Below, in pieces: positions 18,985-44,528 of a DNA stretch of 64,000 nt. The stretch comes from Mycoplasmataceae bacterium (GTDB taxonomy: Bacteria > Bacillota_I > Bacilli_A > Mycoplasmatales > Mycoplasmoidaceae). Where the stretch lies: positions 1-64,000 of the forward strand of contig JAITRQ010000005.1 of NCBI GenBank assembly GCA_031288285.1, given 5' to 3'. How positions within the stretch are numbered: position 1 is the first letter of the stretch; every line of letters begins with the position of its first letter. Below the pieces are notes generated by a model. The model was not told the origin of the DNA and did no database searches. It saw only the letters and a program-made list of their open reading frames with translations. The position numbers and the translations under genes are program-made.

Positions 18985-20463
18985 ATGGTAACCAAAAAGC
19001 ATTGATTGCATTGAACTACTATCAGTTTTGTAGCCATCGTTGCTACAATGTGTATGGGTATTACTTTATCTACTCATACTAATTCTTTTATTACTTTAAA
19101 ATCACCAAATCGCAATGCCATAAATGATGATTTCACTATTGACGATGCAGCATTTTTGACTAGTTGTGGATTAGATCCTGCCGATGGTAAAAGCAATCTT
19201 AAAGCAACAATTACCAAAGAGGTATCGTGGGATAAAAAAAATAACCAAATTTATGGTGAAGTATCATTAGCGGCTGAACAACCAGATTCAATCTCTACCA
19301 TCACTTCTTCTACAAGTGACCCGTTTTACCAAGAAGGATTTAACATCCCCACAGTTGTAAGGCAAAAGATCACCACAAATGGTCAAAGTACTTTTTATAA
19401 CTATAACGTTACCACATTAACTGATAATGCATTTAAATCTGCTATCCACTTAGGGGGTGATTTAACCATTTCTAATTCAATAACAAGCGTAGGTACAAAT
19501 GCATTTGATGGCTGTTCGGGTCTTAAAAAATTAGTAATTAATGCAAACATGGATAATTGAGTGAACACATTCGTTGGATGCAGTGCACTCAACACAATCA
19601 CTATTAACGGAAATATGAATAAATGCGAGAATTGCTTCCCTGAATATCCAGATTCTGTCTCTCAATTAGAAATTAATCGTAATATTGGCAAAGATAATAT
19701 CGATTGTTTCGGTGCCATTTGAAACACCATTATTATCGGCGAAACAGTAACTAATATTGCTGTACCAATTTGTCTTAATCTATCAAATGCAACTAACATT
19801 TTATTTTGTGGTCCGTTGCCAATCATGCCCGCAACTGTATTTAATACCCAAGATATTTCTAAATATAATGCTATTTGAATAAATAAAACTTTTCAGCAGG
19901 CGTATCAAACATTTTTCCCCAATTTTCATACCGTTGATAAATTGTTAGTTAATGGCTATTTTATTGGTCCAAAAACTTTCCCCAAAACTTACCAATATGA
20001 TTATTACAATAATAATCAACCATACAATGCGGTACCTGATAGAGCTTTTGACACCTTAATGCAAAGCACTATCCCTACACCCATATCTCCGGCACACATT
20101 ATTTCATCGTCATTAACATATCGCTTAGTAAATGCACCAAGTTGAGTCTATATTCAAATGATAAATAGTTATCCCGTAATTTATTGAAATAACGCTACCA
20201 CTAGTGGTAAATTTACAATTTATATGACCCAATGTTATCAATACATTATTGAATCTGAAAATCAGCGAAAAACCTATTACACCGATACATACCACTTATC
20301 TTATCCAATCTATTTTGAAATCTTGCCTATTTATACTACCCAAACCATATACGATACTATGGGAGTATTTGCTTTAGTAATGGTTACTATCCTAACCGGT
20401 TGTTTAATTGCCAATGCAGCAATTAAAAAATATAGTAAACCTAAGAAAAGGAAAAAATCATAA
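18985..20463 (+). CDS. LRR (BspA-like) membrane-anchored surface protein
   Basis: 492 residues. The N-terminal signal (MVTKKHWLHW, then a hydrophobic span) has no lipobox. LRR_5-type units follow from about residue 130: TLTDNAFKSAIHLGG, SVGTNAFDGCSGLKKLVIN, FVGCSALNTITI. The protein ends with a membrane span (about 460-480) and a basic tail KKYSKPKKRKKS, so it should sit outside the cell, anchored at its C-terminus. TGA is Trp. The start ATG (18985) is the first in frame after the TATAAT. The T16 promoter tract upstream suggests on/off variation. The stop overlaps the next start (TAATG), coupling it to the membrane protein at 20463. Confidence 0.85.
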
Positions 20464-42028: not shown

Positions 42029-42538
42029 TTATTTTAAAACATATAAAATCAAACGTCCCAATTTCAACGATTGACTAACGTCAATTAATCGTTGATTAGT
42101 AGAGCCGCGATATTTCGATTGAGCTGATTTTAATTTATTGATAAACGGACCATCAATTAATACATCAATATTTTTTAACAAATTCTTAATGGATATATCT
42201 TTATGTGATTTTATTAGTAGCTCTTCCCATGTATAACCGGTATAGCACCAAATATTCATATTTAATTTTGTTTTAATTTTATAAGCTAATTCAGCAAAAG
42301 CGTTTGATTGGTCCATGGGGTCACCACCAGAAAATGTTACACCATCTAAATAGGTTTGATTTTTCAAGTCATCAACTAATTCATCAATATCAAATACTTT
42401 TCCACCATCAAAGGGTCACGTCTCGGGATTGAAACATTTGTCACAACGATGCGAGCAACCTTGTGAAAAAAAGATTTTTCTTAAACCCTCACCATTCACT
42501 AAACTTTGGGGAGAGATACCAGATAATTTAATTTTCAT
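42029..42538 (-). CDS. nrdG: anaerobic ribonucleotide reductase activating protein
   Basis: 169 residues, a radical-SAM enzyme. The cluster motif FSQGCSHRCDKCFNP contains CxxxCxxC (about residues 30-37), followed by TFSGGDPM, the SAM-binding GGE/D motif. NrdG installs the glycyl radical on NrdD. It starts 7 bp after the nrdD stop codon on the same strand. Note that the NrdD here lacks the domain on which NrdG normally acts. Confidence 0.94.
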
Positions 42539-42545
42539 ATAAATT

Positions 42546-44528
42546 TTATTTTAGATGAATATTGGCACGTTCACGATTGGCTTTGGCAGCACAATCGCGA
42601 CAATAACGAATATGAAAATTAATTCCCATATAGTTGATGTTAGTTTTGGTATATGCTCAACGAATAATTTTTTCAATTTGTTCACCCGAAGGATAGTCAT
42701 CAAACTCAACATAAGAAATATGGCCACCATTGCACAACTTGTGATAAGGTGCTTCAAGCGCGATTTTATCAGCATAAGAAATAGGATGATCAACTGGCAC
42801 GTGGAAAGAATTGGTGTAAAAACCCTTAGTATTTACCCATTCAATCGGACCAAATTGTTTAACGTCCATTTTTGTGAATTTACCGCTCAAACCTTCGGCA
42901 GGAGTAGCGTAGCAACTAAAATTCATTTTATATTTTGCTTTGTATTCATCACAACGTTGTCTTAAATGGCCAATAATTTTTAAACCCAATTCTTGAGCTT
43001 GGGGACTTTCGCCGTGGTGTTGATTGATTAGAGATTTTAATGTCTCGGCTAAACCAATAAAACCGATTCCCCAAGTACCATTTTTCATAATCGGTTCAAT
43101 TGAGTCATCTAGACCCAATTTTTCTGATCCTTTCATGAGACGTTGACCAGCTACAAATGGTAAATCTTTTACTTTTAATTTAATTAATGTTTTGTGGCGG
43201 TGAATTAATTGATCTTTAGCAAAAGCAATTCTTTTGTCAAATAATCTAAAAAATTTATTAATGTCACCTTTAGCTAAAATAGCAATTCTTGGTAAATTGA
43301 TAGTAGCAGGGGCATTGTTGCCTCTCCCTTCTACTCCTGGCTCCCCATTCACATTAGACATGATGTATGTTCGACAACCCATGGTAGCTGGTATATAACC
43401 ACGATCATAGTATTCTTTATTAAAGTCGGCATCAATATTCATAAAAGTTGGATTCATACGTTGTGACGAAACGTGACAAGCAATTTGAAATAAATAGTAA
43501 TAAGGGTCATTGGGTTCGCGATTAACACCTTTTTTGACACGGAAAATAATGTTGGGGAAAATGGGTTGTTCCCCTTGACCCATGCCTTTGAGATATTGTT
43601 CTAAAAAAGATTGACAAATCATAGCAGATTCGGGTGAATCGGGTAAGCCAATATTGATGGATGAAAAAGGGACTTGTGATCCTGCGCGGGAGTGCATAGT
43701 ATTAAGGTTATAAACCACAGCTTGCATAGCTTGATTAACTTTTTTAATAAGTTCGTTATTTACTTGAGCATCAAATGCCTTTTTAGGGATTTTTAGTTCT
43801 TTAAATTTTTTGATGATTTCTTTGCGCGATAAACGCACAAATGGGGCCAAATCGTTATCAAAATTAGGATGAGATTGTCCACCAAACATATCATTTTGAG
43901 TGGCTTGTAAAATAATACATAATAATTCAGCGGCAACTTCTATGTGTTTGGGGGGATTAATGGTACCATAGCCAGTGTTAAACCCTTCAGTTAACATTTT
44001 TTTAGTAGGAATATGCAAACAATTTAGTGTTAAATTGTAGCTATCTAAATCGTGAATGTATACATCTCCCATTTCGTGAGCAGTAGCCATATCCTTGGGT
44101 AATATTTTTAACAGAACATGCCATTTATTGGCTTCAGATGCAATTCGTAATAATTTAGCGGAGAAGTTATTACCAACATTTGCATTATCTCGGTCTGTTT
44201 CCACACCAATTTTATTGATAACCTGCATGATTTCTGATTTTAATTCACGTTGTCTAGTGCGTTCGCGACGATAACTATCGTAGGCTCTAGCCAATTTGTG
44301 ATGGCCTTTGATATTTATAGTACGAACAACAATATCTTGAATTTCTTCTACAGACAATTCGCGTTGCTTAGTTTCGTAAATTTTACTAACAATTAATTCT
44401 TTTAATTTGGCGATTTCGTTAACACCAATCGTACTACCCGTGCCAGATATTGCTTTTATTAAAGCTTCAGTTATTTTAGATTCATGGAATGTGACTTTAC
44501 TACCGTCACGCTTGACTACTCGTACCAT
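42546..44528 (-). CDS. nrdD: anaerobic (class III) ribonucleotide reductase, lacking C-terminal glycyl-radical domain
   Basis: 660 residues. The N-terminal ATP-cone is VVKRDGSKVTFHESKI, then SYRRERTRQRE. The catalytic barrel shows LNTMHSRAGSQVPFSSIN, MGCRTYIMSNVNG (active-site Cys), GNNAPATINLPRIA and GTWGIGFIGLAETL. The end is YMGINFHIRYCRDC, then AAKANRERANIHLK and TAA. NrdD proteins normally continue for about 60-70 more residues with a second CxxC of the zinc site and the radical-bearing RV(C/S/T)GYL motif. Neither is present in this or the other two frames before nrdG. So the core is intact but the radical Gly is missing, unless supplied elsewhere. Confidence 0.93.

Follow-up and report, generated by a model that had tools for sequence, protein, structure and literature searches.

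A class III ribonucleotide reductase probably encoded as two separate polypeptides in a lineage of Mycoplasmataceae

The class III ribonucleotide reductase NrdD, an oxygen-sensitive enzyme that produces the building blocks of DNA, is to our knowledge a single chain in all known forms. In the known glycyl radical enzymes, the loop bearing the radical is buried and belongs to the same chain; the way in which the activase gains access to it is a matter of debate. The 64,000-nucleotide stretch of Mycoplasmataceae bacterium analysed here (contig JAITRQ010000005.1, hereafter the window) contains an nrdD gene whose product lacks the C-terminal glycyl-radical segment. An earlier note on this DNA had offered three explanations: a separate small protein supplying the radical domain in trans, a change of chemistry, or recent breakage of the gene. 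We found a small free-standing radical domain (NrdD-C) elsewhere in the same genome and in all relatives with the truncated NrdD (NrdD-N), and the two proteins very probably constitute a natural, obligate two-polypeptide class III ribonucleotide reductase.

Compared with the fused clostridial-type NrdD (NCBIfam NF005497; P. copri NrdD, PDB 8p23), the domains and their order are the same, but the radical segment is here a protein of its own, of 52-84 aa, and two chains each have part of the zinc finger. GrcA/YfiD is a small free glycyl-radical protein which acts in trans on pyruvate formate-lyase (PFL) (PMC8683613). By sequence, NrdD-C resembles it as a free-standing radical domain in all 42 genomes having NrdD-C, and would likewise act in trans. 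However, GrcA rescues oxygen-cleaved PFL that normally has its own domain, whereas the NrdD partner here never has one; in addition, NrdD-C is of the NrdD type with a CxxC and lacks the PF01228 domain of GrcA. A PFL-type GrcA was rejected as the identity of the C-part because the family is wrong, NrdD-C matching PF13597 (518-562) only. Another ribonucleotide reductase, NrdJa/NrdJb of Pseudomonas aeruginosa, also occurs naturally as two polypeptides (PMC9669993), but is a B12-dependent class II enzyme. Interrupted nrdD genes are known in several phages as sporadic breaks, some with traces of a homing endonuclease, intron or intein (PMC3653736); those breaks are neither clade-wide nor at the radical domain, and the phage NrdD fragment families PHROGs 29160 and 4218 (158 and 333 aa) are longer than the radical domain. 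In a literature search covering few subscription journals, no paper turned up that describes an NrdD or PFL permanently without its radical domain and with that domain encoded separately.

The truncated nrdD and the free radical domain

Under table 4 the window nrdD is coding from 44528 to 42549 and gives 660 aa (Table 1), whereas under table 11 it would end at the TGA at 42657-42659. By this reading of the sequence the source organism decodes TGA as Trp, and the earlier note had evidently used the same code, since the table 11 frame would end at that TGA. The protein matched PF13597 (NRDD) over profile positions 1-516 of 562 with 576 bits. The table 4 open reading frame (ORF) and the Pfam matches agreed with the description in the earlier note: the ATP-cone, the barrel and the first CxxC (YCRDC) are kept, and the protein stops 14 residues later, its final sequence being GINFHIRYCRDCAAKANRERANIHLK. 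The second CxxC and the RVxGYL motif were missing from the ORF and from the sequence as far as nrdG, as had also been claimed.

C170 and C385 (ATMGCRT) of NrdD-N were invariant in alignment A3. The AlphaFold model of NrdD-N (pLDDT 82.3, pTM 0.76) had NrdD structures (8p2c/8p23 and 1hk8) as best Foldseek matches, and lack of the radical domain is predicted to leave the fold of the body normal. The 10-stranded barrel of class III NrdD with its thiyl and active-site cysteines is thus present in NrdD-N, judged by PF13597, C170/C385 and the fold match to 8p23/1hk8. The same-chain C-terminal glycyl-radical domain is absent from the window gene and is found as a separate 61-aa ORF. The cognate radical S-adenosylmethionine (radical-SAM) activase NrdG is also encoded, in a gene which starts at 42538, 7 bp past the nrdD stop, and which is intact as previously noted; it matched TIGR02491 with 166 bits, above the NCBIfam cut-off of 126.

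A genome-wide search for a short protein with CxxC and R-V/I-x-G-Y had been proposed, and a PF13597 profile search over the whole source genome matched exactly two places, the window gene (1-516) and positions 20773-20910 of contig 6 (517-562). The second place belongs to the NrdD-C gene, which lies inside a 25-kb contig; its product carries the second CxxC and RVTGYL, with Gly30 as the radical glycine. Four cysteines for a Zn(Cys)4 site are all encoded by the apparent pair, the two CxxC being divided between the two proteins. Near the NrdD-C gene (L002:507-1426) we observed one desulfoferrodoxin-like ORF (oxygen defence) and one dCMP-deaminase-like ORF (nucleotide metabolism), both named by eye from the translation.

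Conservation among relatives and origin of the split

The source genome belongs with 41 genomes from three genera of one Mycoplasmataceae-like family in which NrdD ends at the same place as in the window: 33 genomes in g1, six in g4 and two in g8 (genus codes here are working labels, and g1 has 36 species). With a profile of the small protein (A1) we searched 320 genomes of the order, and a free-standing C-part of 52-84 aa was present in 41/41 genomes with truncated NrdD. One genome beyond the 41 (G001) had a C-part, with no truncated NrdD found, and no other genome of the 320 had one, the remaining A1 matches being ends of fused NrdDs. Such clade-wide conservation excludes a recent break. A full-length gene in related genomes, which the earlier note would have counted against its proposals, does exist in distant relatives (Clostridium, other Mollicutes) but not within the clade, and leaves the supply of the radical domain in trans unrefuted. 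Among the NrdD matches listed for the sampled class, almost all were full length. Two g1 genomes (G002 and G026) had no NrdD detected; NrdG accompanies NrdD, and G026 was also without an NrdG-grade match. The named records of relatives with split NrdD are metagenome-assembled genomes (MAGs) whose sources are termite gut, rumen and horse. Their labels read Mycoplasmataceae, uncultured Ureaplasma or Ca. Hennigella equi; the termite source was read from isolate names and is not stated in the record titles.

Both halves are under strong purifying selection, with dN/dS in the closest pairs of 0.03-0.09 for the C-part and 0.01-0.10 for the N-part. The radical Gly and the CPxCG motif were invariant in the C-parts. 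No match to PF02867 (class I or II large subunit) was found in the 36 genomes of g1, so the check for another ribonucleotide reductase suggested earlier came back empty in this genus. Together with the small ORF, found in the same genome and in all relatives with truncated NrdD, the selection on both pieces supports the first of the three explanations, a radical domain probably supplied in trans; a different chemistry is unlikely, given that conservation extends to NrdG as well as to the radical-Gly motif.

The C-part was located within about 3 kb of the N-part on the same contig in 23 of the 41 genomes, usually after nrdG, and nrdD-N, nrdG, nrdD-C was a frequent gene order. It has moved away in the remaining genomes, the source genome among them. 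AGGAG-like sites precede most C-part ATGs. In g8 the C-part directly follows the N-part, before nrdG, with a TAA stop, an overlapping AGGAG site and the C-part ATG 12 nt on, in frame; this arrangement appears to be ancestral for the split. We also observed at the g8 loci (L005:1644-1660, reverse strand; L030) that the halves keep one frame with only the TAA and the overlapping ribosome-binding site between them. Frameshift or read-through to the missing part was rejected because in the source genome the C-part and the N-part are on different contigs, and the C-part of relatives is usually after nrdG; only g8 has it in frame 12 nt on, with the TAA/AGGAG junction.

The break lies between the two CxxC pairs, the first staying on the body (42/42 rows) and the second going with the radical loop. 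The fused clostridial NrdDs are uninterrupted across this junction (YCKECG-TYLHESQ-NTCPKCGS...RVTGYLSLDERFG), and the linker 'TYL' is retained in the C-parts. After the first CxxC the N-parts have a tail of 2-29 variable residues, and the C-part leaders are short. When the pieces are aligned to the solved structure of P. copri NrdD, the N-part reaches chain position 689 and the C-part covers 696 to 740. A Gly right after the first CxxC was found in 51/51 fused clostridial forms and in none of the split forms, and its loss may be a sign of a site adapted to the break.

The window protein showed 57-63% identity to clostridial full-length NrdDs. The nearest fused proteins were those of Clostridium and its relatives. 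In the protein tree the split forms group with clostridial NrdDs and away from those that other Mollicutes of the order have, which suggests that the NrdD was acquired from a clostridial source and then split. One group held 37 of the 40 split rows with modest support (81) while G004, G016 and G018 fell apart, and a single origin of the split was not rejected (p-AU 0.36). In these three (L051, L063 and L066) the body is odd around profile positions 245-260 and the C-part contains an insert of about 15 residues; in G004 the C-part is upstream of the body; this subgroup is possibly an independent split. Another, distant NrdD with its C-terminal domain attached was observed in G029, G034, G001, G042, G044 and G055 (L205-L210), and that of G029 may be contamination.

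The proposed two-chain enzyme and rival explanations

We infer that the two chains assemble physically, share the zinc site across their interface and are active together. NrdD-N would contribute the cone for allosteric control, the barrel, where the substrate site and the thiyl cysteine are, and one half of the site for zinc; the second CxxC would come from NrdD-C, as would Gly30 of RVTGYL, the radical residue. NrdG would place the radical on Gly30 of the free or loosely docked small subunit; NrdD-C would dock at the place of the C-terminal domain of fused NrdD, with half of the Zn(Cys)4 site from each chain, and the docked radical would then oxidise the barrel cysteine. In P. copri NrdD the radical domain is mobile and disordered in the dATP state, and the radical still forms (PMC11226230), so a detachable radical domain is plausible. 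A free domain of 60 residues makes activase access directly testable, since activase substrate, charged subunit and body could be separately purified, mixed and exchanged.

Several points weigh against a two-chain enzyme. The docking is argued from homology only, and the enzyme itself is a prediction. The N-parts have no Gly after the CxxC, so that the zinc site may be altered. The source genome is 51% complete, with its C-part on a different contig and behind a weak ribosome-binding site, and a promoter scan upstream of this C-part gave ATGACA-17-TATATT, not above shuffles. NrdD-C folded alone gave a poor AlphaFold model (pLDDT 60), as might be expected of a piece that folds on its partner, which is weak evidence.

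An assembly or binning artefact could be suspected from a fragmented MAG with the two pieces on different contigs, and the earlier note had named an assembly error as what would refute its observation. The same break in 41 independent assemblies of different sources, 23 of them with both pieces on one contig within about 3 kb, makes an artefact scarcely credible. It is also very improbable that the nrdD-N gene is in decay and the small ORF a remnant, with deoxynucleotides coming from salvage or a second reductase: these small, reduced genomes, two of which in g1 are without NrdD, would fit such a loss, but the purifying selection on both pieces, the invariant catalytic and zinc residues, the universal co-occurrence and the lack of another ribonucleotide reductase in 36 genomes speak against it.

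Two pieces of one ancestral protein at separate places are also the expected look of halves joined after transcription or translation, by RNA trans-splicing or a split intein, into one full-length NrdD. However, the N-part tails and C-part leaders leave no room for intein halves, nor does the window for an intron half, with nrdG 7 bp after the stop; moreover, both pieces have start and stop codons, and a separate ribosome-binding site precedes most C-parts. We regard joining as highly unlikely. NrdD-C might instead be mainly a repair part like GrcA/YfiD, the domain-less body doing other chemistry or using a different radical source. The free domain does resemble GrcA in design (PMC8683613) and the break frees the oxygen-sensitive portion, but these genomes have no intact NrdD of this type to repair and NrdG, specific to the NrdD radical, is kept. 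Such a role as the main one is very unlikely; since the body always lacks the radical domain, NrdD-C would have to be obligate, and exchange of NrdD-C after damage may be an added benefit. The split NrdD would also be nature's counterpart to the PFL:YfiD repair pair, in an enzyme on which DNA synthesis depends.

Table 1. Location of the split NrdD genes and related features (window positions unless a contig or locus is given)
Feature	Location	Strand	Remarks
nrdD-N, class III ribonucleotide reductase body (ATP-cone, catalytic barrel, first zinc CxxC), glycyl-radical segment absent	42546..44528	-	660 aa with TGA=Trp
ATP-cone domain, residues 3-91	44256..44522	-	Pfam PF03477, E 9.7e-17
First zinc pair C643-x-x-C646 (YCRDC)	42591..42602	-	kept in 42/42 split N-part rows
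In-frame TGA = Trp624, code 4	42657..42659	-	column holds Trp in relatives (alignment A3)
TAA stop = domain break, 14 residues past first CxxC	42546..42548	-	
nrdG, radical-SAM activase	42029..42538	-	169 aa with TGA=Trp; NCBIfam TIGR02491
NrdD-C, 61 aa, MNKVTYLSPSDKTCPICGSKNIQSISRVTGYLSLDERFGSGKCEERASRVDHNNQHRRNYK	G000:C6:20743-20928	-	PF13597 positions 517-562; other contig than the window
Split PFL loci	L171-L182, L213-L219		genera g1, g3, g8, g9
Phage free NrdD radical domain, 52 aa	L156:2998-3156; contig 19204-19359 of IMGVR_UViG_3300001598_000013		

Split pyruvate formate-lyase and a phage-borne domain

Neither a shared zinc site nor a second split enzyme was foreseen in the earlier note. 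The PFL radical domain (PF01228) was in two pieces in 22 g1 genomes as well as in three genomes from other genera (G051, G043 and G055), the split being read by sequence in ten of the g1 cases and in these three. The split body, of about 700 aa, terminates shortly past ...ISNTFSIIPGALGK in a tail rich in lysine; the free radical-domain ORF (about 85 aa, range 80-110 aa) carries HLNVNV...PEKYPQLTIRVSGYAV. The two are adjacent in several genomes and 25 kb apart or on different contigs in others, and the free domain adjoins a PFL-activase-like gene in G010, G011, G020, G043 and G051. It resembles NCBIfam GrcA3 with 145 bits, below the cut-off of 158. Intact PFL was found in eight g1 genomes and also in G287 and G289; the NrdD and PFL splits are separate events, because NrdD is split where PFL is intact (G008, G009, G012 and G028). 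The source genome showed no PFL and no PF01228 in its 51% complete assembly but had a PflA-like match, and its PFL may simply be missing from the assembly.

That the split recurs in PFL of the same bacteria suggests that selection has favoured radical carriers which can detach, in microbes living in guts with fluctuating oxygen. We tentatively propose, as a possibility somewhat less likely than its opposite, that the glycyl radical as an exchangeable small subunit is a general design of the lineage: both ribonucleotide reductase and PFL would be obligate two-component enzymes, activases would charge the free domains, oxygen-damaged domains would be swapped in place of whole enzymes, and phages would bring their own NrdD domain.

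One 43-kb phage contig (IMG/VR, G659), with terminase and portal genes, a TGA=Trp reading and 7-deazaguanine-type genes, encodes a free NrdD radical domain (Table 1), and the 40 kb read yielded no NrdD body. This domain is possibly donated to the split enzyme of the host. The 7-deazaguanine-type (queuosine) genes on the contig are QueC, QueD, QueE and FolE-like, and a gene like that of a reverse transcriptase, with what is probably a template repeat close by (L222:17690-18745 and flanks), resembles a diversity-generating retroelement.
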